Assembly (NCBI GenBank): GCA_937922805.1
Contig: CALAJV010000014.1
Span: 1 to 64,000 of the forward strand
DNA from: an uncultured Acidimicrobiales bacterium
Lineage (GTDB): Bacteria > Actinomycetota > Acidimicrobiia > Acidimicrobiales > SZUA-35
Reading direction: 5' to 3'
DNA length: 64,000 nucleotides
Part shown: in pieces, positions 1 to 13,089 of the stretch
Layout: every line of letters starts with the position of its first letter
Position numbering within the stretch: position 1 is the stretch's first letter
Made by a program: the position numbers and the translations under genes
The notes under the pieces: generated by a model
What the model was told of the DNA's origin: nothing
Databases searched by the model: none
The model's input: the letters and a program-made list of their open reading frames with translations, nothing else

Positions 1-2143
1 CCATCTCAGCATCCTGACGAGCAACCAACTCAGTCAACCGATCAGCAAAATCATCCCCATACACATCACCATCCAAAAACTCACCAAGCTCACCCTCATG
101 AACCAACACCAAATCCGAAACCGGATCACCACCTAACCCACTACCGGACGAACCGGACGACTCTTCGACCCCGGCCGCTCGCTGTTGTGCTGACGACCCA
201 TCTATGACTGCTTCCTCACCGTCGGGAATCGCCACATTAAACGGGTCCGGCACATCACCAGAACCACTCTCCAAAACATCACCAGAACCACTTGGCGGAA
301 CATCGCCAGACTCACTTGCCGGAACATCACCAGACTCACTCGCTGGAACAGCGCCAGAACCACTCGCCAGAACATCACCAGACTCACTTGCTGGAACAGC
401 GCCAGAACCAACAACCGGATCCCCTGGGCCACCAAACGCAACCAACTGATCGCCAAGCGCAACATCAGCTTCCACGTCCTGGCCCAGTTCGCCAAGCGCA
501 CCGACCTCACGAGCAGCATCGATCGGAGTACCAAACGGGTCGTAGGCAATATCGGGAACGCTTGTTGCGTCAGTAGTGTCATCGACTTCTACTCCGGAGG
601 CAGTGGTGTCGCCAGCGTTGGTCGGCCCGTACGAGACAACGCCCGGGTTGACGGTGTCGGGGTTATCTAACCCTGAAAACAACGCGTCGGGTGCTCCAGA
701 CGTGTTGGCTAAGCCTAGTGGCGTATCCTCTTCTACTTCTTCTAGTTCAGAACCGAAGGTCACTGATACGGACCCGTCATCAAGATCGGTATCGTCGCTT
801 ATCTGGGATTCTCCTAGTGCCAGCGCCTCATCGAATTGCCGTTCTTCAAGATCCATCGCTCGGTTGGCCAAAGCATCGTGTTCAACCTGATGTTGCGAAG
901 CAAGCGCGGCCATTTGATCAGGAGTTGCTGATGGTTGGGCTTGCAAAGCAGCCATTTCTTCAGTCTGGCGGGCATTAATGGCATCTTGTTCAGCGTAGAC
1001 AGCTGCTTGTTCCTGGTCGTGGATTGTGTGAAGCGTCGAGATCTGGGCGTTACGCTCAGCCTGCGCATTGTCAAACTCCACCGGTTCGCTAGCAGGGATC
1101 TCGTCGTCAACTTCGACAAAACTGGCGGGAATTTCTACTACGGTCAGGTGGTCGTCCAGCCCGGGAATGTCGATAGTTGCTAGCTCAGAAGGTTCAACGT
1201 TGGCGTCACGACTTCGTTGTTCTTCATCCGCAGCCCGCTGGTTCGACGCATCAGCGTCAACCTGCGAATCGAACATGTTTCCGAAATCGTCGGAGAACGT
1301 ATTCGACTCGAAAGGGTCGGTTGGCGTAGTCGCGAGCTCAGCCTCAAAATCGGCTAGATCGACACGAGTATCGCTACCGGTGTCATCAACGTCTGCAGTT
1401 TCAGTATCGGTAGTTGAAGTGTTGTTTGCGATAGGTTGGCTGGAATCGGTGACTAGGTCACCGAACGGGTCATACGTTACAAGTCCGGCCTGAGAATCGC
1501 CTTCAGTCACGCTGCTGGAATTGTTCTGATCAACGCTGCGATCGAACGGGTCGTCGTTTTGGGTATTGGAGTCCGGGATTGGTGTGTTGGTATCGGCTGG
1601 CGCACCAAACACTGCGTCGAAGTTGTCGGACAAACCGTTCGCTTCGAAATAGTCAACTGAAGAACCACCAGCAACCTCGGCTACAGAGTCCTCGGCCGGA
1701 CTCGCTGCGGCTTGATACCCACCGCCAAAAGAGTCAGAGGTGTTAGAGATTGTCGGACCTGGCCCGCCAAACGCATCCAGCGACTCGTAAGAAGTAGCGG
1801 TAGCAGCGGCGGCCGCGGCTTGTTCAGCTCGCTCATCTCCACCCGACTTCTCACCACCGAATCCAGAACTACGCTCAGGCTCAGGCTCAGCGTTGTTGCC
1901 AGCGGTATCGATATTGTCGCCTTCGTAGCCAGCGTCGGCGCTGGCTGGGCTGACGCCTCCGATTGACAGCCCGGTGATGCTCATCGCAGCCGCGGTCGCC
2001 AAAAGTAGTTTCCGACCTTTACGGACCCACGTCCCGCTGCCAACGATGCTCACATAACTTGAGTCGACCGGCCGTTCAACTACATTCTCGAATTCACCAC
2101 TCGGCTTTGCATCGCCGATTCCTGGAAAACGCTCTTTACTCAC
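1..2143 (-). CDS. Large exported low-complexity protein, partial (C-terminus beyond left edge)
   Basis: An open frame runs from a GTG at 2143 to the left edge without a stop, giving at least 714 residues; the C-terminus is missing. After a basic stretch (VRKGRK) comes a hydrophobic segment at about residues 41-64 ending in ASA-DA, which reads as a signal peptide or anchor. The rest is acidic, rich in Ser, Thr, Gly and Ala. It carries several scattered DPF motifs (YDPFG, DPFD, DPFE, DPFN), two AFGGPG motifs, a Gln/Glu/Ala-rich helical stretch likely to form a coiled coil, and an 8-residue tandem repeat of the type SGSGDVLE encoded at 252-410. There are essentially no cysteines, unlike the two giant genes upstream. 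I recognise no enzymatic domain. A promoter candidate lies just upstream and overlaps the end of the next gene. The function is unknown; a surface or secreted structural role is an inference. Confidence 0.75.
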   Translation of the reverse strand, partial: MSKERFPGIGDAKPSGEFENVVERPVDSSYVSIVGSGTWVRKGRKLLLATAAAMSITGLSIGGVSPASADAGYEGDNIDTAGNNAEPEPERSSGFGGEKSGGDERAEQAAAAAATATSYESLDAFGGPGPTISNTSDSFGGGYQAAASPAEDSVAEVAGGSSVDYFEANGLSDNFDAVFGAPADTNTPIPDSNTQNDDPFDRSVDQNNSSSVTEGDSQAGLVTYDPFGDLVTDSSQPIANNTSTTDTETADVDDTGSDTRVDLADFEAELATTPTDPFESNTFSDDFGNMFDSQVDADASNQRAADEEQRSRDANVEPSELATIDIPGLDDHLTVVEIPASFVEVDDEIPASEPVEFDNAQAERNAQISTLHTIHDQEQAAVYAEQDAINARQTEEMAALQAQPSATPDQMAALASQHQVEHDALANRAMDLEERQFDEALALGESQISDDTDLDDGSVSVTFGSELEEVEEDTPLGLANTSGAPDALFSGLDNPDTVNPGVVSYGPTNAGDTTASGVEVDDTTDATSVPDIAYDPFGTPIDAAREVGALGELGQDVEADVALGDQLVAFGGPGDPVVGSGAVPASESGDVLASGSGAVPASESGDVPASESGDVPPSGSGDVLESGSGDVPDPFNVAIPDGEEAVIDGSSAQQRAAGVEESSGSSGSGLGGDPVSDLVLVHEGELGEFLDGDVYGDDFADRLTELVARQDAEM
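252..410. repeat. 24-bp in-frame tandem repeat, about 6.6 copies
   Basis: Units start at 252, 276, 300, 324, 348, 372 and 396 (the last partial) and follow acat/gc-cgccagaac/ctcact-type sequence with substitutions between copies. Each unit encodes eight residues of the S-G-S/E-S-G-D/A-V-x type in the minus-strand gene. Because 24 is a multiple of three, copy-number changes would keep the frame. Confidence 0.85.
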
Positions 2144-2240: not shown

Positions 2241-5200
2241 TTAGTTGCTCGACGCTTGATCAGCGCAGGCTGCCTTAGGATTGCTCGTGTAATAGCGAAC
2301 CGTAGTTTGCAAAACACTTTGGAAATCGTAGGTGTTTCGGGCACCGCTAAGGTCTCTGGCTAATCGAGTATTAGCGGCGGTTACTTCGGAGTTCGTGCAT
2401 CCCTGCAGAAACGAAGCAACAATTTGGAGGCCCTGCGTTGCCATGTAGTTACTGACGACGTTGGCCCGCCTGTCGTTGTCATAGCTGTTGGATACGTACA
2501 GGAAGAGCAAGTTCCCAAACTGGGTCACTCCGGCAGAAGGCGCCGCACCATCGGCGGTCAAGGCCGAGACAAACTGAGTCCTCGAGTACTGACCGGCCAG
2601 TCTAGACAAGTACTTCTCAAGCTCAAGTTCTAGATTCTCAACCGATTTGCTGTTCTGAACAACCTTTAGAACTTCGTAACTTACCTTTTGGAACAGCGCC
2701 TCTCGACCGCCCTCAGCGGTAACGAACCGTTGTCCGGCTGATGCCTCGATCTTTGGCAAAACGTTACGGAAGAAGAAATTCTGAAGGTCCGATGCCTCAG
2801 CGCCGGCTAATCCAGAGGCATAGCCGGCAAGAACCAACAAGGCTTTCCCTACCTCGGCCCATTGTGGGCTCAGATGCTCTCCGATTCGTGCGTTGACGCT
2901 ACCGGCTACATCTTCGCCGATGTAGTTCAAGGCATACGCCTCGGCGGCGTCTCCCAGAACGTTCCACTTTCCTGGATTTTTGAGAGCGGCGGTCAGTATT
3001 TCTTCTACAAGTCCCCCGACGAATTCTGACACATTCTCTAGCGCTGCTAGCTTGGCGCCGAGCCCATTCAGTTGATGACCAACGAAGTTGGCGAACAGCC
3101 TCTCACCTAACGTGCCTCCACCTTCGCTGAAGAGATTTGATTCCATTACCGACAGCGCTATCCGTTGACCGGTAGTAAGTGTTCCCAGGCTTTTGAAGTG
3201 TCCGATTCCACCGGTTATTCCACCGGTCAAAGCCCCTTCCAGAGCTTCTTTGACGTCGCCGGTGGCGATGAACGTGGCTGCGCCGCTCGAAGTGGCACCG
3301 ATAATGACTTTGGAACCGAGGCTCAAAGTAGGTGCTGCCACACTGGATGCTCCGGCAGCTCCCGCCGTTCCACTTGCGACACTTGGGGTTGCTAGGGCGG
3401 CGCCCATACTCGCACCGATAAGCGCGGCTGCGGCGATAGCCAGCACACCCCGCAAATAGCCCGTGTATCGAGACCTAATAGATTTGCTGGCCATTACGAA
3501 CACTTCTAGGTAAGGGCGGGCCAGATCCCAGACCGCTGGTTCGATGCCATAGGCCCGAGCTCGCTCATGCTCAGTCGAGCTGTTGAAGAGCTCTGAGAAA
3601 GGCGTCGGCGTATGAACATACTCCGGCCCCTCCTCGTCGTTAACGAAGCCGACGACTCTCTTTATCGGATAATAACCCTCCGTGATTGTCTGATACACCT
3701 CGCGAATCGTTTCGTTGTTGTTCTCGCCTATGAGGCCCTTAGCTACATGCTTTGAATAGGCTTTTAGTGAGTTGGTCTCGCCAGACCCTGGCTCTCGGTC
3801 GCCGATCCGGTTCAACAAGGTTTTCAAATTCTGAGCGTGAGCAACGACGTATTCGCTCCGTACCTCTTCGGAATTCTTGAAGGCCAAAATATTCAAGAAC
3901 GGCGACTCAAGGCCATACTCCGGCAACTGAACGCCAACGTTGACCCCTCGAAGCGGCGTCGCTATTCGACTTAGCAACGTATCGGCTAGCAAAACAGAGG
4001 TCTGCCCGGCCAACTCAGCATCGGTCAACCCGAAGCCGGTTCCGCCAAGAGCTCGCAATTCGTTGTTGAAATCAATGACAACTTGACGCAACTGAGCGGT
4101 TTCTTGTTCCCGTAGCGAGTAGACGATCTGCAACTTCGACGCCAATCGCTCGACATCGGTTCCCGTGGTACCAAGCAGTTCCGCGAGGGCATCGACATAC
4201 AATGCCGGGATTTCCACGCTGCTCGCTGGCAAATTACTGTCGGCAGGGTCGACTTCTCCGTCGGCACTCGCCGGTCCGTCACCTTGATCCGTGACTGCAA
4301 TCAGCGAGGAAGGAGCGATAAGTACGACGGGCGACTCTTCACCTCGGATCTGTACGCCATCGCGAGTGGTAATCGCCACCACTGAATAAGCGACATCAAC
4401 ATCGTCTTGCAGGAACCGGGTCGAAGTGTCGGTGAATGTGCGCCCTGGATACGTTAGGCCTACGTCGAACGTCGGTTCTTCGACCAGCATCGGCCGGCCA
4501 TCAGTGCCCTGGAGAAATACTCCGTTTCGTTTGATCTGGTAGCCGTCAATGTAGCCCTGTTCCCAACCCGGAGGAGCGTTCCAGTTCAACTGGATACCTC
4601 CGTTTTCGACCTGACTGGCGGAAACGCCAGTCACCATGTCTGCGGTGATCGACGTTGGCACTGGCACGACGGGCTGCGACTGCACAGAGAGATTTGGGCC
4701 AAACGTTCGAGGAGTTGATACGGAGTCTGCGCTGTCAAAGAACGGAGTGATCGTGTAGGTGTAGCTCTTCCCGGCTTCTACGTCAGCGTCGTAAAAGAAC
4801 GGAATAGGAACGAGGCCTTGGTCAACGCCATCGCGATCAACCCGATAGCCCGACGGGTTCGGACCTTCATTGGCCGGAGCCCAAACGACGACAAGCTCAA
4901 GCCGGAATTCCGTTTGTGCCACGCCAAGGTTTAGGACCGGACGGGCTGCACCGCCGGGATAAATCTCGTTGCTGGTTTCAGCGGCGACAATTTCCACTTC
5001 CTGATCTGAGCCGAATGAGTTCAAGTGACCTTGAGCTGGATCAAAGAAAAATCCAACAGTGACGGGCGCTCCGTTGACTGGCCGAGCGCCAGAGTTGTCG
5101 GCTGCGTATACCGTATACCGGTGGTTCTGACCGGACACGAAGCCGAGATCTAGGTACGTGTTGACGGCTCCGGGGCTGACCGATGCTAGGTAAACGTCGT

Positions 5201-7451
5201 CACGCAATACGTCGTAGCGGGTTGGCGAACCATACAACGGAGCGTCCCATTCGACTAAGCCTGCTCCTACCGAGGTGGCACCGGCTCCCTGGCGAACGCT
5301 GTGTGAGACTCGAAGGTTCTGGACGATGCCAAGCCCAGTTGGGCTGGCAGAGCCCTCAGCTATTGGAGGCCCTCGGACAACGTTGCACCAGCGACCACCC
5401 TGGCGACCCTGCTCGAACCCGGCTTCGACCCAAGCAGCTACTGTGCATGGCTCGTCAGTCGCTGGCGAAAAGTTCAGTACAAGGCAGGCCATTGCATGCT
5501 CACTTGCCTGTTCGTCGCCTTCGATCACGGTTCCACCACCAGCCAGCGTTGCTTTACATAGTGGCAGGTCGCTATTGGCCGGAAGTTGAACAACGACAAC
5601 GTCGCTGTCTACTCCGTCAACGACGGCCGCCTCCGTCGAAGGGTCTTCGACATCGCTAGCAGCGGCCGGGACAGGGGTCGTCATTGCTACGGCAGTATCA
5701 CCGGTGCCGCGGACAACCTCGCACATTTGTCCGCCGACTTCACCGTGGGTAAAGCCAGCCTTTTCCCACGACTCGATGCTGCAAGCGGGTAGCCCGCCGA
5801 TTTCAACAATTGGCTCCGCCTTGCACGACATGTTGTTTTCCCAACCGAATCCGCCGTTGTCGTTGGCGAGGCAGAACGGATGATCACCAGGGCCTGCGAT
5901 TGGGGCTATAAGTTCTCCGCCGCCAGAATCAGAACCTCCGCTATTCGAAATGCCCTCAGCTTCCTTAGCCCGACATGACCTTGCGTTTTCCCAACCGAAC
6001 GCCCCAACGACGTCTGCCACACAGATCGGGTGCTCGGCCGTTGCAGTAGGCGGAGTTGCGAGAGCCGGGTCGACTCCCGCAACTTCCTCAACCGAATTTC
6101 CAACAACCAAATCAACCAGAGCGTCGGCTGGGTCCACCGCAACATCAGCCGGCTCGACCGGAGAGTCGGCTACCTCGATTGGCACCTCGACCAGATCGGT
6201 ACCTGCCTCGACCGGAGTGTCGGCTACCTCGATTGGCACCTCGACCAGATCGGTAGCTGCCTCGACCGGCACAACCGGTTCATCAACCGAAGCATCAATC
6301 ACCTCGACCGGCACAACCGGTTCATCAACGGAATCAACAGAAGCCTGTTCGGCTTCTATCGAATTGTCCGAAGGTGCTTCAGCGGGAATTTCTCGTTCTA
6401 CTACCCGACAAGATTCGCCGTTTTCCCATCCGAACCCGTCGCCATCAGGATCAGAGCCAGCTATTTGGCATTCCTGTTCAACTGCGCTGACCAGCGAATC
6501 ATCTTGACAAAGGTCCAGATCGCTAACCAAGAAACCGCCGTTGAGGCTCGTGATCAGATCGCTTAGCAACTGGGCCACGTTGAACCCGATTGAACCCTGA
6601 TTTGAGCTAAAACCGAGGTGGATATTTTGAGCCAACTGCCCGCTAACCGCGCCCAGCTGCTCACCGCAATCGGCCAACGGCTCCAACTGGCCGTCAACTC
6701 GCCACATAACCGAATCAATTCGGTCCCGAGCTCCGTCCGAAACGACCGCTGCTTCGATCACCAAGCCGGTTGCGTCGATTAAAGGCTCGAAAATCGCAAA
6801 CCTGGCCTCGCCTAAACGGGCCAATACCTGTTCTTCGAACGCCGCAACCTGGCGTTCACGTTCAGAAACGTTGGGTTCAGCCTCCACGTCGGCAACAACT
6901 ACTTCTGGCTCGGGGGCCTCGATTGGCTGTTCAACTTGATGATCAGCCTGCTCAACTTGGTCATCACTAGCCCCGCTGGTTGGAGCCGTCACTCGACACG
7001 ACGCGCCGTTCTCCCAGCCGAAACCATCACCGTCCGGATCGGATCCGGCATCCTGACAATCAGGTGTTCCCGCACTACTCGGCCGCTCTTGCCCTGGAGC
7101 TTCACCCGAATTGTTCTCCCCCACATTCGAAGAATCGGTAGTCGACTCGATGGCTGGATCGGCGACCACTTCATTGGAAACTTGGTCGCTTGCATCGCCG
7201 ACCTGGCAAGTTTCGCCATTCTCCCAACCCCAACCATCTCCATCAGGGTCGGAGCTAGCAGAGACACACGCAACCGCTGCGTCTGTCGGCGTATGGTCGA
7301 CCGCGACCAGAACAGCCGACGTCACCAACAACACAGAAAACACCGAAATCGCCCGAAGCATGCCCGGACGGTAGGTACCCGCCGACCACAGCCGATCTAG
7401 ACCCAAATTCCGGGCCCGGCCCGCACCCATACAACTAGGCGAAAAACGCAT
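2241..7451 (-). CDS. Giant exported protein with repeated GWENG cysteine modules, Fn3 domains and hydrophobic C-terminal region
   Basis: 1,736 residues, ATG start. Residues 31-60 form a basic-hydrophobic export signal (FSVLLVTSAVLVAV). Five short modules follow, each ending in (F/W)GWEN-x-x-(S/T)C, near residues 62-82, 132-152, 328-348, 477-493 and 527-543; the first three contain DPDGDG, which looks able to bind calcium. The GWGWEN..SC core resembles the conserved core of CBM10 carbohydrate-binding modules, but the rest of that family is not obvious. Two further Cys modules have the pattern W-x-x-A-G-F-x-x-G...GG-x-x-C near 557-577 and 669-689. A Val/Glu/Pro repeat region spans about 378-445. 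Fibronectin type III-like domains occupy about 708-1045. The C-terminal third includes a Gly/Ala-rich hydrophobic stretch (1333-1420) with GGITGGIG, reminiscent of pre-toxin or membrane-insertion regions of polymorphic toxins. No catalytic motif is recognised. It is paralogous to the next gene upstream. Confidence 0.85.
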   Translation of the reverse strand: MRFSPSCMGAGRARNLGLDRLWSAGTYRPGMLRAISVFSVLLVTSAVLVAVDHTPTDAAVACVSASSDPDGDGWGWENGETCQVGDASDQVSNEVVADPAIESTTDSSNVGENNSGEAPGQERPSSAGTPDCQDAGSDPDGDGFGWENGASCRVTAPTSGASDDQVEQADHQVEQPIEAPEPEVVVADVEAEPNVSERERQVAAFEEQVLARLGEARFAIFEPLIDATGLVIEAAVVSDGARDRIDSVMWRVDGQLEPLADCGEQLGAVSGQLAQNIHLGFSSNQGSIGFNVAQLLSDLITSLNGGFLVSDLDLCQDDSLVSAVEQECQIAGSDPDGDGFGWENGESCRVVEREIPAEAPSDNSIEAEQASVDSVDEPVVPVEVIDASVDEPVVPVEAATDLVEVPIEVADTPVEAGTDLVEVPIEVADSPVEPADVAVDPADALVDLVVGNSVEEVAGVDPALATPPTATAEHPICVADVVGAFGWENARSCRAKEAEGISNSGGSDSGGGELIAPIAGPGDHPFCLANDNGGFGWENNMSCKAEPIVEIGGLPACSIESWEKAGFTHGEVGGQMCEVVRGTGDTAVAMTTPVPAAASDVEDPSTEAAVVDGVDSDVVVVQLPANSDLPLCKATLAGGGTVIEGDEQASEHAMACLVLNFSPATDEPCTVAAWVEAGFEQGRQGGRWCNVVRGPPIAEGSASPTGLGIVQNLRVSHSVRQGAGATSVGAGLVEWDAPLYGSPTRYDVLRDDVYLASVSPGAVNTYLDLGFVSGQNHRYTVYAADNSGARPVNGAPVTVGFFFDPAQGHLNSFGSDQEVEIVAAETSNEIYPGGAARPVLNLGVAQTEFRLELVVVWAPANEGPNPSGYRVDRDGVDQGLVPIPFFYDADVEAGKSYTYTITPFFDSADSVSTPRTFGPNLSVQSQPVVPVPTSITADMVTGVSASQVENGGIQLNWNAPPGWEQGYIDGYQIKRNGVFLQGTDGRPMLVEEPTFDVGLTYPGRTFTDTSTRFLQDDVDVAYSVVAITTRDGVQIRGEESPVVLIAPSSLIAVTDQGDGPASADGEVDPADSNLPASSVEIPALYVDALAELLGTTGTDVERLASKLQIVYSLREQETAQLRQVVIDFNNELRALGGTGFGLTDAELAGQTSVLLADTLLSRIATPLRGVNVGVQLPEYGLESPFLNILAFKNSEEVRSEYVVAHAQNLKTLLNRIGDREPGSGETNSLKAYSKHVAKGLIGENNNETIREVYQTITEGYYPIKRVVGFVNDEEGPEYVHTPTPFSELFNSSTEHERARAYGIEPAVWDLARPYLEVFVMASKSIRSRYTGYLRGVLAIAAAALIGASMGAALATPSVASGTAGAAGASSVAAPTLSLGSKVIIGATSSGAATFIATGDVKEALEGALTGGITGGIGHFKSLGTLTTGQRIALSVMESNLFSEGGGTLGERLFANFVGHQLNGLGAKLAALENVSEFVGGLVEEILTAALKNPGKWNVLGDAAEAYALNYIGEDVAGSVNARIGEHLSPQWAEVGKALLVLAGYASGLAGAEASDLQNFFFRNVLPKIEASAGQRFVTAEGGREALFQKVSYEVLKVVQNSKSVENLELELEKYLSRLAGQYSRTQFVSALTADGAAPSAGVTQFGNLLFLYVSNSYDNDRRANVVSNYMATQGLQIVASFLQGCTNSEVTAANTRLARDLSGARNTYDFQSVLQTTVRYYTSNPKAACADQASSN
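6154..6261. repeat. 54-bp direct repeat, two copies, followed by a shorter repeat pair
   Basis: Copies at 6154-6207 and 6208-6261 differ at only a few positions. They encode the DLVEVPIEVAD-x-PVEA repeat of the giant protein. Just beyond, a 26-base segment beginning tcgaccggcacaaccgg occurs twice (starting at 6262 and about 6304). All units preserve frame. Confidence 0.8.
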
Positions 7452-7710
7452 CGATTATTCATTCTCCCCTGGCGACATATGTTGTCACCGCACAAAGACC
7501 CACCTAGAACGACCAATCTCGTCGCTGTCGCTTAACCAGATACACGACATTTTCACCACTTTCGATACCGATTTGGGCGAAATTTTTGATGTTGCCCGCC
7601 CCAACCAATCCCGATCACAGATCCCGATACAGAAACCAATCACAGGCACAGAACGGGGTGCTATTGAATTCAAACATCCCGACCGTGAGCGGGCTTGGTC
7701 TGCAACCCAG

Positions 7711-10700
7711 CTACAGACCAGCGTTCCATTCCTCGGCGAGCGCAAATACGTACCGCTCGACGCTTCGGTCGACCGTGTCCATCGTCCCACCACTCATTCG
7801 AACGGCGGCAACGATATCCAAAATTGTTTGGCCGACGTTGGCGTACAACTCTTCTGGTGATCCGTACCGCTCGATGAAGGCACCACCGTGAGTGAACTCC
7901 AGCTTGGGAATCACTTGGTCGAAGAAGAACCGCTTGGCCGTTGCTTCGCCCCCGTCAGACGAGGCCACGACTCGGGCGAACCCGGCGAGTGTTTGTCCGA
8001 GCTCTACCCACTGACGGCTGAGTCCGTCGCCGCTAAATCCTGATAGCTCGCTTCCGATGATCTGAACGAGGAAAGCGTCGGTATCAACCAAGATCTTTTC
8101 CCAGTCGCCGCCGTTGGCCACGGCCGATATTCGAATCACTTCTAGAAGCCGAAGGGCGAACGGTGATGCATTTTCGATAGCGATTATCCGGGCGCCAAGC
8201 CCTTCAAGATATTGTCCGTCAAACACGTCAGAAAGACTCTGTTCAAACGATTCGTTCCCGTCTAAATGTCGTGACAATAGAAGAGCCTTGACAATCGCTC
8301 GCCCCGCTGGCAGCCCCTCAATGCCGGACAAGAATCTGAGGCCGCTGGCGGCGCCACCACTAATTCCGCCCAGGAACGCTGCCTCCCAATCACCTTCGGT
8401 TATGAACAGCGTCGATGCGGTGCCGCCCACCGCACCGCCGACAATGGCGTATGCAGCCGTACCTTCGGCCAAGCCCAGCGCCCCGGCTACAGCCGGACCG
8501 AACTGCGTAGCTAGAACAACGGCAAATCCGAGCTTGACTAGGTTGAATAGGTGGCCTCGGAATCTTCCCCACCCGTAGTTGTCGTCGCGAAAGTTCTCTA
8601 CCCCGACGTAAAGTTCCAGGAACGGCCGCGCTAGGCCCCAGGTTCCAGGGTTAATGCCGTACGCCTGTGCTCGTTCGTCCTCCGACGATGCGTTGAATAG
8701 TCGGGAAAATGCGTTTGGCGCTGGCACATTACGCATCTCGCTGCCGATATCGCCAACATCAACCCGCTGGCGAGTGGTCGGTGTATAGCCGTCGACGATA
8801 TTGCGGTACATCGCTCGCATCTCGACCGCCCGCGTGCCGGTTGCATCCAGCAACAGTCGAGCCACATTTAGCGCTGCGTACTCGATTTCTTTCACTTGGC
8901 CTTTCGGCGGCCTCGACCCTTGGGTGATTCGTTCCAGCTCGGCCCGACGGTCGTGCAGCATTGTCATGTGCTGAACCATCATGTCGGTTTTTTCTTGAAT
9001 CGATTCGCCGTTTGAACGAAGGGTGTTGAGGAACGGCGATGACATTCCGTAGCCTTCGATCAGTACGCCAACGTTGGTTCCTTGATTGGCGGCAGAGATT
9101 CTACGCAAAAGCTCATCAGCAGCTTCAGCCGCTGGAAGCTGGGCTAGTTCTTCATCGGTGAATCCAAGCGCCGCACCGGGCGAAGATCGAACGCCTCGGT
9201 TGAAGGTATAGACCAGATGGTCTTGAAACTCAGCTGTGCCCCTTAGGGTGTGCAGCAAATACAGTTGAGATCCGAGTCGTTCAGCGTCAACTCCTGATAC
9301 GCCCAAAGCAGACGTGACCGCATCGATGAATCGCTGTGGTATCTCTTGAACGGTCGCTCCTGGGGTGGCCGTGACCGGTTCTTGCAGCTCCAGCCCAGTG
9401 CCGGTATCTGTCGTCTGACCAACCGGATCGGTTTCAATTGGTGAGATAACCAGCAGCGGAGAAGCCTCGCCGTACACCCGCTCACCAGACCGGGTGGTAA
9501 CGGGGATTATGGAGTATCCGTATGTTTCGCCTGCTTCGGTCATCGTGTCGAGATATGACCGCTGTTGGTATGGCAATTCTCCAGCAGCGGCAAAGTCCGG
9601 CTCATTGATCGTAGAAATCATCGTGCCGTTCCGGCTAATCACGTATTCGTCAATTAGGCCTTGGGCCCAGCCAACTGGGGCGTTCCAGCTGATCTCGACT
9701 TGGGTTGTCCCTGGCCGTTGTTCAACTGTTACGCCCGACACCGCACTCGACGTAATCGACTCGGGTACCGGCAGGATCGGCTCCGACTGCGTCGACAATC
9801 CAAGACCGTCGACTCGCGTCGCGCTGCCGTCGGCAGCGGTAGCCAAGATAAACGGCGAGACTGTATAGGTGTAGTGTTTGCCCACTTCAACGTTGTTGTC
9901 GTAGTAATACGGGATATCTACTAGCGCCACTACTCGGTCATCGCGAATTATTTGATAGCCGGTTGGGGCTGGCCCATCAGTGGGAACATCCCACGCCGCT
10001 ACTAGTTCAACCTCAAACTCCGTTTGACTGATCCGAAGGTTCCGAATCGGCCGCAACGTGCGATCGTCAAACCCGTCGTCTACATTTCGGGCCGCTTCCC
10101 GGTCAGCGTCTTGGTTGGGGCCAAACTCGTTGAGATGGCCCTGGTCTGGATCGAAGAAGAAAGAGGTGGTCGTTGGAGCACCGTTGATAAGCGTTGCCCC
10201 TGAATCATCCACCGCTGAAACGGTGTAGTAGTGAGTTCGCCCCGACACAAAGCCGAGATCCAGATACGAGTTCACTGCTCCTGGTGTGACCGAAGCGATG
10301 AACTGTCCATCGCGAAGGACGTCATATCTGGTCGGTGAACCTCCCAATGGGGCATCCCACTCAACCAGGCCAGCACCCCAGGAGTAGATCGAGTAGCCCT
10401 GGCGAATAACGTGTTCGACCTTTAGATTCTGGACAACGCCAAGTCCGCTATCGGCCGCCGGAGGAGGGCCACGAACGACGTTGCACCAGCGTCCGCCCTG
10501 CCGACCCTGCTCAAACCCGGTTGCGACCCAAGATGCAACCGTACAAACCTGGCCTGTTTGCGGTGAGAAGTTCAAGACAAGACACACCATGCCTTGCTCG
10601 AACGACGTCTCATCGGCGGCGTTTTCGGTCGATCCGCTCAAGTCAACCGTACCCGAGCCCGAGCCACCGTTCGCACCGCTGTTGCTAGCGGCAGCGTGCA

Positions 10701-13089
10701 TACAGAGAGGGAGGTCGCCCGGAACACCAACTTCTACAATCTGATCTCGAAGCTCTTCGGTTGATGTTGTCGCACCGGTTGGCTCCGGTTCCGGTAGCTG
10801 CAGATCGCCACTAACTATGGCCGACACCGCGTCGATACCTCTTCGTATCGGACCTCGATAGTTAGCCGGGCGAGTCACTACACACCACTGGTTGTTAATA
10901 AATCCATAGGGGAAACCTTTGTCATACCATTCGAGCACTGGGCACTGCAGGCTTGGTTCTTGCGCAAAGTCGCTGATCAAGGCCAGACAGGTCCGACCAC
11001 CTTCAAAGCCGAGACCACCAGATCGGTCGCTGGCGCACACTGGCAAATCACCACGCGCCGCATCGGGTTCAAGTTCGGTACCGCTAGCGTCGGTCTCCGC
11101 CTCGCTACTCGTTGCGGCGCTGTCCTGAAGGTCGTTGTTCGTCGTTTCGGTGGCGGTAGTTTGCAGAGCCGTCGAGTCGAGGCTTTCTACCTCGACTTCA
11201 TTGTCATCGAGACTTATTGGTGCAGAGTTGTCAGATTCGGGGGCTGCCTCCTGGGACGCTCCACTCAGCGTTTCCACATCACTAGGTTCGGGGACCGAAG
11301 CGACAGCGCACGAACTACCGCCAACCTTCCCGTAGACGAAACCAGCATCAATCCATTCTTCAACCGGACAAGTCGAGGTAACGGTCAGGGGCAAAGCGTC
11401 GGCCAGGCACGACATGTTTTGTTCCCAACCAAACCCTCCAGAACGATCACTCAGGCAGAAGGGATATTCGCCGACGTTAGCTATCGTCGCTTCGCCAGCA
11501 ACACCTGAATCTGAGGCTGACTTTTCGCGGTTGCCACCAACGCCACTTGACGCAGTTACTTCCGCTCCCCCGTTGGCCACCGTTTCAACGATTGCCGGCA
11601 CAGCGACATCAACCGACGGCTCAACCACATCAACCAACGGCTTAACCACATCAACCAACGGCTCAACAAGATCAACCAACGGCTCAGCCGAATCAACCGA
11701 CGATTGAACTACATCAACCGAAACCTCAGCCGAATCAACCGACGGCTCAACAACATCAACCAACGGCTCAGCCGGATCAGGATCCTGATTAGGGTCGGCC
11801 TGGCTGGGTGGGTTGTCGAGGGTCGTGTTCGTTTCTTCTACCTCAACGTCTTGTTCGGCAGCGGTGCTCAGATCTGCGACCGAACCACGTTGATCTGACG
11901 TCGCCTGCCCACCGGCTGATTCTTCAGGTGCCAGATCAGCTGAGACATCGACGCCTGGAGTGACGACTCGACATGTTGCGTTGCTTTCCCAGCCGAATCC
12001 GTCGCCGTCGGGATCAATGGCGAGATCGGTGCAATTCGGATAGTCGGTCGCCGATTCGGCGGCACAAACATCTCGGTTGGCAGCAATCTTGCCGTCGCCG
12101 CCAAGTCCCGCTGTCGTTAGGTCGCCGACCATGTCAGCAACCGCCTCGCCGATTGAACTTGAATCCTTGTCGTAGCGTGCAACGAGTCGCTCGGCAAACA
12201 GCTCGCTAACGACAACAGCATGCTCATCGCAAACAGATATGTTTCTGAGCTGGCCTTCAAGTCGCCATAAGACAGAAGCGACTCGGGTGCTATCGCCGTT
12301 CGAGACAACCGCAGCGTCAACAACAAGGCCGACTGCATCGATCAGTGTTTCATAACGATCAAGCTCATCTTGGTCTAGCCGAACATCCAAGCGGTCGGTG
12401 AATTGTGTCGCTTGCCGTTGCCGTTCCGTCTCTGGCGACTCGACTAGCTGCGACTCTGGTGTCTGCTGGTCGGCCGATTGGGCTTCTGAAGGTTGGCCGT
12501 TTTCAACAGGCACACTTGGTTGTGCGTCTGGTTGGTCAGCCTGCTCACTGCCGGGAACCACACGGCAAGTCGTGTTGTTCTCCCAACCGAACCCATCACC
12601 ATCAGGATCTAGACCGGCTGAGGAACAGTCAGGGGTACCCGAGATATTCGGCTTGTTCGACTCTCCCTCGGCTCCGCTTTCGGTTGTATCAACGCCTGGT
12701 TGAGCATTTGGTTCATTCGGGACGCTTTCGTTCGGAGCGGCTCCGTCGACGCTTCCAACTTGATCAGACGGTGCGCTGGCTGCAGTAGCGTTTGGTTGCT
12801 GAGCGTGCCCGTCGTCGATGACCTTACATGTCACCCCGTCTTCCCATCCCCATCCATCACCGTCAGGATCAGACGCTGAAGATCGGCACTCTATTGCTGC
12901 TTCCGATGGCGACGTCTCGACTGTGACTAGGACCGCCGACGTAACTAGAAACACGGCCAGCACGCTGACGACCCGAGCTAGGCCAACGTTGGCCACCAAC
13001 GCTCGCGCCCGATTTGCGACCGATCTCTTGAGAACAGCAAAAAGTAGTTCAGCCGAACCCAAAGTCGCTGCACAGCGGTTCTTTTCCAC
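7711..13089 (-). CDS. Giant exported protein, paralogue of the downstream GWENG/Fn3 protein
   Basis: 1,792 residues from a GTG start preceded by GGTGGGA. An export signal lies at about 40-60 (LAVFLVTSAVLVTV, nearly identical to the paralogue). GWE-type Cys modules occur near residues 68-88, 155-175, 353-373, 545-561 and 685-701; the last is degenerate (GGLGFEGG). The second Cys module type occurs near 574-594, 716-736 and 849-869. A Val/Asp/Pro repeat (EPLVDVVEPSVDSAE) occupies about 441-500. Fibronectin III-like domains follow from about 883 to 1220. A helical region with AQAYGINPGTWGLARPF matches the paralogue, followed by a Gly/Ala hydrophobic stretch near 1515-1590 (AIVGGAVGG, GGISGGAASG). 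Conservation of layout with divergence in the N-terminal linkers suggests an old tandem duplication. Function is unknown; a cell-surface adhesin or toxin-delivery stalk is an inference only. It ends 259 bases before the next gene. Confidence 0.85.
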   Translation of the reverse strand: MEKNRCAATLGSAELLFAVLKRSVANRARALVANVGLARVVSVLAVFLVTSAVLVTVETSPSEAAIECRSSASDPDGDGWGWEDGVTCKVIDDGHAQQPNATAASAPSDQVGSVDGAAPNESVPNEPNAQPGVDTTESGAEGESNKPNISGTPDCSSAGLDPDGDGFGWENNTTCRVVPGSEQADQPDAQPSVPVENGQPSEAQSADQQTPESQLVESPETERQRQATQFTDRLDVRLDQDELDRYETLIDAVGLVVDAAVVSNGDSTRVASVLWRLEGQLRNISVCDEHAVVVSELFAERLVARYDKDSSSIGEAVADMVGDLTTAGLGGDGKIAANRDVCAAESATDYPNCTDLAIDPDGDGFGWESNATCRVVTPGVDVSADLAPEESAGGQATSDQRGSVADLSTAAEQDVEVEETNTTLDNPPSQADPNQDPDPAEPLVDVVEPSVDSAEVSVDVVQSSVDSAEPLVDLVEPLVDVVKPLVDVVEPSVDVAVPAIVETVANGGAEVTASSGVGGNREKSASDSGVAGEATIANVGEYPFCLSDRSGGFGWEQNMSCLADALPLTVTSTCPVEEWIDAGFVYGKVGGSSCAVASVPEPSDVETLSGASQEAAPESDNSAPISLDDNEVEVESLDSTALQTTATETTNNDLQDSAATSSEAETDASGTELEPDAARGDLPVCASDRSGGLGFEGGRTCLALISDFAQEPSLQCPVLEWYDKGFPYGFINNQWCVVTRPANYRGPIRRGIDAVSAIVSGDLQLPEPEPTGATTSTEELRDQIVEVGVPGDLPLCMHAAASNSGANGGSGSGTVDLSGSTENAADETSFEQGMVCLVLNFSPQTGQVCTVASWVATGFEQGRQGGRWCNVVRGPPPAADSGLGVVQNLKVEHVIRQGYSIYSWGAGLVEWDAPLGGSPTRYDVLRDGQFIASVTPGAVNSYLDLGFVSGRTHYYTVSAVDDSGATLINGAPTTTSFFFDPDQGHLNEFGPNQDADREAARNVDDGFDDRTLRPIRNLRISQTEFEVELVAAWDVPTDGPAPTGYQIIRDDRVVALVDIPYYYDNNVEVGKHYTYTVSPFILATAADGSATRVDGLGLSTQSEPILPVPESITSSAVSGVTVEQRPGTTQVEISWNAPVGWAQGLIDEYVISRNGTMISTINEPDFAAAGELPYQQRSYLDTMTEAGETYGYSIIPVTTRSGERVYGEASPLLVISPIETDPVGQTTDTGTGLELQEPVTATPGATVQEIPQRFIDAVTSALGVSGVDAERLGSQLYLLHTLRGTAEFQDHLVYTFNRGVRSSPGAALGFTDEELAQLPAAEAADELLRRISAANQGTNVGVLIEGYGMSSPFLNTLRSNGESIQEKTDMMVQHMTMLHDRRAELERITQGSRPPKGQVKEIEYAALNVARLLLDATGTRAVEMRAMYRNIVDGYTPTTRQRVDVGDIGSEMRNVPAPNAFSRLFNASSEDERAQAYGINPGTWGLARPFLELYVGVENFRDDNYGWGRFRGHLFNLVKLGFAVVLATQFGPAVAGALGLAEGTAAYAIVGGAVGGTASTLFITEGDWEAAFLGGISGGAASGLRFLSGIEGLPAGRAIVKALLLSRHLDGNESFEQSLSDVFDGQYLEGLGARIIAIENASPFALRLLEVIRISAVANGGDWEKILVDTDAFLVQIIGSELSGFSGDGLSRQWVELGQTLAGFARVVASSDGGEATAKRFFFDQVIPKLEFTHGGAFIERYGSPEELYANVGQTILDIVAAVRMSGGTMDTVDRSVERYVFALAEEWNAGL
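11606..11773. repeat. 21-bp in-frame tandem repeat, eight copies
   Basis: Eight 21-base units start at 11606 and every 21 bases after, of the form acatcaaccaacggctcaac with substitutions. They encode the seven-residue unit (V/A)EPLVDV in the giant minus-strand gene. Internal copies are nearly identical at DNA level, so slippage or recombination could change length without a frameshift. Confidence 0.85.

Follow-up and report, generated by a model that had tools for sequence, protein, structure and literature searches.

Tandem giant exported proteins of an uncultured Acidimicrobiales bacterium share a C-terminal core with PT-HINT proteins of relatives

The stretch of DNA analysed here (the window, 64,000 nucleotides) is the start of contig CALAJV010000014.1 in assembly GCA_937922805.1 of an uncultured Acidimicrobiales bacterium, a genome referred to below as G000. 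Two giant exported proteins are encoded side by side near its beginning, P1 with 1,736 residues (2241..7451; Pfam CBM_10 E 1.8e-13) and P2 with 1,792 residues (7711..13089; CBM_10 E 4e-10); positions are those of the window, and all features of both proteins lie on the minus strand. The initial annotation had described two paralogues of these lengths sharing one order of modules, and this was borne out: both open reading frames (ORFs) are intact, lie exactly where they had been placed and encode the same domain order, with 41% identity in a MAFFT alignment and 653 identical residues among 1,547 aligned in a separate pairwise alignment. The start codons are uncertain, above all the GTG of P2. 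The export signal noted at that time appears in hydropathy plots, the method used here, as one strong hydrophobic segment at each N-terminus (residues 29-55 of P1, within 7272..7451, and 28-61 of P2, within 12892..13089), a feature by which polymorphic toxins are recognised. An N-terminal segment with a conserved cysteine pair (C262/C315 in P1, 6462..6929; C287/C342 in P2, 12040..12507) was delimited approximately by alignment and is also present in C4, a third paralogue on the contig of that name in the same genome. Each protein contains 21 cysteines. One precedes the leader or stands at its beginning, and the positions of the remaining 20 allow a reading as adjacent pairs, which would be compatible with disulphides.

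Three full modules of the pattern D.DGDG(W/F)GWE and two shorter ones of the pattern C..(F/L)G(W/F)E..C, here termed GWENG modules, were found in each protein. The full modules of P1 lie at 7206..7268, 6996..7058 and 6408..6470 and its short ones, the first of which lacks DPDGDG, at 5973..6023 and 5823..5873; those of P2 lie, in the same order, at 12826..12888, 12565..12627, 11971..12033, 11407..11457 and 10987..11037, the last being GWENG-like. All full modules were identified by profile and pattern, the second of each protein by Pfam as well, and the short ones by pattern. A further module type, C..W..GF..G..GG..C, occurs by pattern twice in P1 (5721..5783 and 5385..5447) and three times in P2 (11308..11370, 10882..10944 and 10483..10545), and among the ORFs scanned, loci L014 and L034 lying outside the scan, it is confined to these two proteins. 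The suspected resemblance to CBM10 proved to be a genuine Pfam match, CBM_10 (PF02013) scoring 51.2 bits in P1 and 40.5 bits in P2 against a gathering cut-off of 23, in three stretches each. Within the CBM10-type modules only the aromatic pair of G(W/F)GWE is conserved; in CBM10 the aromatic pair has a role in glycan binding. When compared with the PDB, the module matched 1e8r, a member of the CBM10 family, at E 0.003, with only the GWGWE..SC half aligning; for the DxDGDG half, the matches to EF-hand loops were all non-significant (E>=0.34). The module is probably closed by a disulphide and may perhaps bind a metal through DxDGDG.

Fn3 domains had also been claimed for both proteins. The tract of P1 at 4221..5369, which aligns to P2, reached 14.2 bits (E 0.053) with Pfam Fn3 (PF00041), below the cut-off of 25, and the tract of P2 at 9352..10458 had no match to that model at E<=1. 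Direct recognition by Pfam was thus not obtained, whereas homology to a recognised Fn3 tract was: by BLASTP the P2 tract matches (E 3e-20, 32% over 187 residues) the part ahead of the C-terminal core in a protein of G449, a genome of another family in the order, where Pfam detects Fn3 in seven stretches (E 6.5e-33). The order of Fn3 followed by core is common to P2 and the G449 protein.

The C-terminal domain, here called the pre-toxin core, comprises the last 659 residues of P1 (2244..4220), as delimited by alignment, profile and model; it is predicted to be mostly helical, includes a hydrophobic Gly/Ala stretch by hydropathy (residues 1333-1356, 3384..3455) and ends in a cysteine pair. In P2 the core, delimited by BLAST and alignment, is the last 546 residues (7714..9351), with its hydrophobic stretch at residues 1517-1535 (8485..8541). 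The layout as first annotated needs one correction here, since P2 lacks the last ~110 residues of the domain, including the terminal cysteine pair kept in P1 and C4; inspection by eye of three-frame translations of the 260-base gap revealed no remnant of them. C4 (locus L015, 7034-10015) is shorter, 993 residues, and consists of two GWENG modules, the cysteine-pair segment and the core, with no Pfam match to Fn3. Glycine and alanine make up 30-36% of core residues 240-360 in the three paralogues, in keeping with the GG-rich hydrophobic C-terminal part described earlier.

The initial annotation had advised separate searches with the N-terminal modules and the C-terminal third, and these gave unequal returns: the modules were assigned to CBM_10, the C-terminal third had no Pfam match, and structure prediction yielded low-confidence helix. 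Neither Pfam nor NCBIfam holds a family model for the core, which fits the earlier remark that no described family of this architecture is known. Two AlphaFold2 models of the core, built from six sequences, were nearly all helix with a mean predicted local distance difference test score of 62.0 and 63.6. Foldseek with the first model returned nothing at E<=0.001, VIA-align with the second gave a best Z of 5.1 with unrelated proteins, and a sequence search of the PDB with the core had no significant match (best E 0.25); a new fold is not claimed. The Umb1 umbrella toxin particle (PDB 8w20), second in the VIA-align results (Z 5.0, root-mean-square deviation 4.8, 77 residues), was tied with unrelated entries, below a meaningful level for helical models, and was not taken as evidence.

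Homologues of the core are known in C4, in two proteins of the same-genus genome G006 (G6a and G6b) and in the G449 protein. When the last 575 residues of P2 were searched against G000 and 60 related genomes, 61 in all, matches were found only in G000 and G006. The homology is not circular, because BLAST from P2 alone reaches both G006 proteins (E 8.8e-19 and 1.1e-16) and a profile of five cores built without G449 finds the G449 protein (E 1.5e-52). All three core homologues outside G000 continue in one frame to a PT-HINT domain, which is of a self-cleaving kind, above cut-off and a C-terminal tip. In G6b (3,267 residues) the core is followed by PT-HINT and a WHH nuclease tip (E 2.9e-11, above cut-off); in G6a (1,525 residues) the tip after PT-HINT has a weak match to DNA/RNA non-specific endonuclease (E 0.0076, below cut-off); and in the G449 protein (2,908 residues) the seven Fn3 stretches precede core, PT-HINT and a tip that had no Pfam match at E<=5. 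G6a also joins two CBM_10 modules to this same core, HINT and tip. The HINT strings CNSFPTGT and VLVHN are present in all three and absent from P1, P2 and C4. The pre-toxin character suggested for the C-terminal part thereby gains support, and P1 and P2 share with polymorphic toxins a domain homologous to the part ahead of HINT.

The core is very rare in the genomes sampled. The core was found in 3 of 397 sampled genomes of the order, the window's own included, in none outside G000 among 394 other sampled genomes of the class and in none besides G000 among 396 sampled genomes of the phylum, with at most the best three candidates considered per genome; the core of P2 had no match in plasmids at E 1e-3. 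On the conservation of the layout in relatives, which the initial annotation had made a test of its proposal, the outcome is partly adverse, the core being so rare. When GTDB contigs were scanned by pattern with the G000 cores, 44 stretches matched and no relative was among them. Scanning with the HINT region recovered 10 loci, the core being present only in the three already known; in three of the other seven (L148, L149 and L152) the contig ends upstream of HINT, where a core would have gone unseen. PT-HINT-type proteins without the core were observed in the Acidimicrobiales loci L151, L153 and L039. Within the genus, PT-HINT matches occur in 3 of 12 genomes.

G000 itself contains no PT-HINT match. 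P1 and P2 have no match to a releasing peptidase, HINT or other, at E<=1, and P1, P2 and C4 reach no further than the end of the core, with no C-terminal toxin domain: P1 and C4 finish with the cysteine pair aligned to the core end and P2 some 110 residues earlier. Assembly gaps do not account for all three missing tips, because other genes follow each of them: a convergent gene directly after C4, P1 after P2 and, after P1, an exported ORF that is cut by the contig end. At identical residues, four-fold third positions of the three paralogues differ in 56/80, 66/85 and 64/89 cases (70-78%), with core identities of 35, 29 and 39%, respectively. Silent sites saturated in this way together with 29-39% core identity show long purifying selection on the tip-less proteins, from which it follows that the form without a tip has a job. 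The three G000 cores resemble one another (27-38% identity) more than they do the other cores (18-23%), so that either one loss or one gain of the tip would suffice. No immunity gene was recognised beside P1 and P2, the upstream genes and the truncated downstream ORF having been scanned. The contact-dependent killing system that had been considered conceivable at this locus is consequently not supported, given the absence of HINT, tip and recognised immunity gene at P1 and P2 and of PT-HINT in the genome; surface display, the other half of that suggestion, is plausible.

We consider it an even chance that P1, P2 and C4 are relatives of HINT-type polymorphic toxins without the toxin end, in which the toxin chassis has been kept as a glycan-bound surface fibre. 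The leader suggests that the three proteins would be exported, and the family to which the CBM10-type modules belong suggests that these, close to the mature N-terminus, could bind glycan, either that of a substrate or that belonging to the envelope or matrix of the cell itself. A shaft of many cysteine pairs and acidic linkers, in P1 and P2 also of Fn3-like domains, would then carry the core outward. As the core stands ahead of HINT and tip in relatives, it may be a presentation or membrane-contact part; forming the end of the protein in G000, it would act by surface contact, adhesion or membrane engagement and deliver no attached toxin.

Several points weigh against this reading. A toxin-domain match above cut-off was obtained in just one of the three tips, and in none of the three HINT-bearing relatives does the ORF next downstream, the one gene considered there, match an immunity family; these relatives are for that reason not established as complete polymorphic toxins. 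Membrane contact by the core would be a guess from composition, and no firmer than that because the core models are of low confidence and have no significant fold match; the central 19-residue hydrophobic peak is at least 1.6 in four of six members, stands at 1.58 in G6b, and in C4 the maximum lies elsewhere. With G000 94% complete and the ORF downstream of P1 truncated where the contig stops, a separate gene for the cargo may have escaped the assembly.

The GWENG module is not confined to the window. Searched with a profile built from 19 modules, G000 yielded 82 matches at E<=0.1, with 150 of 159 candidates scored, and the 11 other genomes of the genus yielded 0 to 10 (G009 10, G006 4, G007 3, G010 and G001 1 each, and none in six others). 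Across the order, a match at E<=0.001 was obtained in at least 6 of 397 genomes, a floor since at most the best 21 candidates per genome were considered, and CBM_10 is likewise rare there (3 of 248 sampled genomes at E<=0.001, two of them over the cut-off, G000 included). In the fetched G000 loci (L015-L017, L065-L071, L113-L137, L139 and the window), 86 modules with a bit score >8 were counted in 42 ORFs, P1, P2 and C4 among them; the shorter second-type modules score low in this count, and, as contig or stretch ends truncate several ORFs, two of these could belong to a single protein. The modules prefer protein ends genome-wide. When compared with random placement along each protein (2,000 trials), the C-terminal excess is strong, 15 of the 38 ORFs whose end is known having their last module no more than 12 residues from the C-terminus (mean 2.0 and maximum 7 by random placement). 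The N-terminal excess is modest: of the 36 ORFs whose start is known, 22 have a first module that begins within 110 residues of the N-terminus, a wide limit (mean 11.9 and maximum 20 by random placement). A module near the N-terminus or at the C-terminus was found in 37 of the 42 ORFs and at both ends in none, which is partly expected because only ORFs with at least one module were counted; of the five with neither, four are cut at one end. Many ORFs with an N-terminal module, including P1 and P2, carry further internal ones.

An enzyme domain above the Pfam cut-off was found in 13 of the 30 GWENG ORFs, out of 42, that were examined: six M91 with RTX, two subtilases, two GH12, one M23, one GDSL and one carbohydrate esterase. 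The module, being joined to such varied enzyme classes, is not tied to one substrate. The six M91 proteins are exported and combine RTX repeats with a metallopeptidase domain of the M91 'effector protein' type (L113, L115, L116, L122 and two in L137), and five of them finish in a GWENG module. Three further features were seen among the GWENG ORFs. Of the 36 with a known start, 13 (L067, L068, L071, L114, L117, L119-L121, L124, L126, two in L134, and L136) open with M-C-x(2,3)-C, before the signal segment, as do none of 296 other ORFs >150 residues in the same loci, a set in which many are spurious. Within the first 100 residues, the motif W-x-R-x-(G/R)-x-(K/R) occurs in 16 of the 36 and in 2 of these 296, and the ORFs of L126, L132 and L136 share a C-terminal tail like AADTYS(G/N)G(D/S)L(G/D)GEF.

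One possible explanation for the end placement, offered tentatively, is that GWENG serves as a genome-wide terminal tag that would dock enzymes, RTX-metallopeptidases and toxin-derived fibres onto a common surface receptor or matrix in a dockerin-like display. It is similarly conceivable, with the same reserve, that the tag would be a CBM10-derived module used at one end only, singly or as a tandem pair, with P1 and P2 among its largest clients. A different use of the same modules is that P1 and P2 are substrate adhesins, in which CBM10 modules would attach the cell, or enzymes of the cell, to polysaccharide from plants or algae, the core would merely span or anchor, and the link to toxins would be one of ancestry. 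The CBM_10 scores above cut-off and the joining of the module to the two GH12 glycosidases and the carbohydrate esterase in this genome favour such adhesins; the module's presence on enzymes not aimed at glycans, namely the six M91-RTX proteins and the two subtilases, argues against them, as does the tip-bearing G6a, which combines two CBM_10 modules with the same core, and we regard this explanation as doubtful.

In a two-part toxin, P1 and P2 would be delivery shafts and the effector a separate protein, for example an exported M91-RTX protein or the ORF at 2..2143 directly downstream of P1, on the minus strand. This ORF, truncated where the contig stops, encodes an exported acidic protein of at least 714 residues whose leader resembles the leaders of the GWENG ORFs of L122 and L124. 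Its position, the three intact tip-less shafts under selection and the six M91 'effector' proteins with GWENG modules in the same genome speak for such an arrangement; on the other side, no conserved pairing of cargo and core was seen, the neighbours differ among the loci read and the ORF has no NCBIfam match, which makes a two-part toxin unlikely. That the core itself is a membrane-active toxin needing no tip would fit its predicted helicity and Gly/Ala-rich hydrophobic stretch; in view of the modest hydrophobic peak in P2, C4 and G6b and of the lack of a recognised immunity gene, we hold this to be very unlikely. Decaying remnants of toxins with a lost end, a scenario to which the missing ~110 core residues and cysteine pair of P2 lend something, are disfavoured as highly improbable by the three long intact frames and by saturated silent sites alongside conserved protein sequence.

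The region upstream of P2 (13234-24121) contains rpoB, rpoC, DsbB and thioredoxin-like genes, the last two directly upstream of P2. The order rpoC, DsbB, thioredoxin was found in 8/8 same-genus loci read (8 of 11 sister matches, L075 extending just 1.1 kb beyond the thioredoxin gene), three of these loci have 4-5 kb separating rpoC from DsbB, and no match to P1 or P2 at E 1e-3 was found in any of the eight. DsbB and thioredoxin as disulphide partners specific to P1 and P2 were rejected, as the pair is kept in all eight loci without P1 or P2 matches.

In one open-access literature collection, neither GWGWE, DGDGWGW nor DPDGDGWGWE was found, nor any literature combining Acidimicrobiia with polymorphic toxin, Acidimicrobiales with CBM10, or polymorphic toxin with PT-HINT and Actinobacteria; the tip-less set and the GWENG expansion were not found in print there either. 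The parts are of known kinds (CBM10, Fn3, polymorphic toxin); set apart from these are the core, for which Pfam and NCBIfam have no model, and the unusual tip-less set. Should the fibre interpretation be correct, a toxin chassis would have been retained for a different role, whether it once had a toxin and lost it or had none at all, and tip-less copies in one species with tip-bearing copies in a same-genus genome would form a natural set. The ~600-residue domain, which has no Pfam or NCBIfam model, marks a lineage of HINT proteins in Acidimicrobiales, and the terminal GWENG module (~25 residues, some 40 ORFs, perhaps one receptor) gives a testable handle on surface dressing in a poorly cultured actinobacterial group.

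Of known systems, HINT-type secreted polymorphic toxins (Zhang et al. 2012, PMC3482391) are alike in their export signal, their long modular central part and, through the relatives, the core ahead of HINT and tip. P1, P2 and C4 differ in having no releasing peptidase, toxin domain or recognised immunity gene, and in a core without Pfam or NCBIfam match. The CBM10/fungal dockerin family (PF02013) is alike in the GWGWE..C core with two central aromatics and a closing cysteine, in tandem pairs and in terminal placement, which dockerins also show. GWENG differs from this family in being carried by proteases and toxin-like shafts as well as glycosidases, and in matching 1e8r over one half only. Fungal double dockerins are described as CBM10 in PMC12120621. 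Bacterial teneurins (PMC13018210) are putative surface toxins whose metazoan relatives are adhesion receptors; they provide an analogy for the reuse of a toxin chassis.
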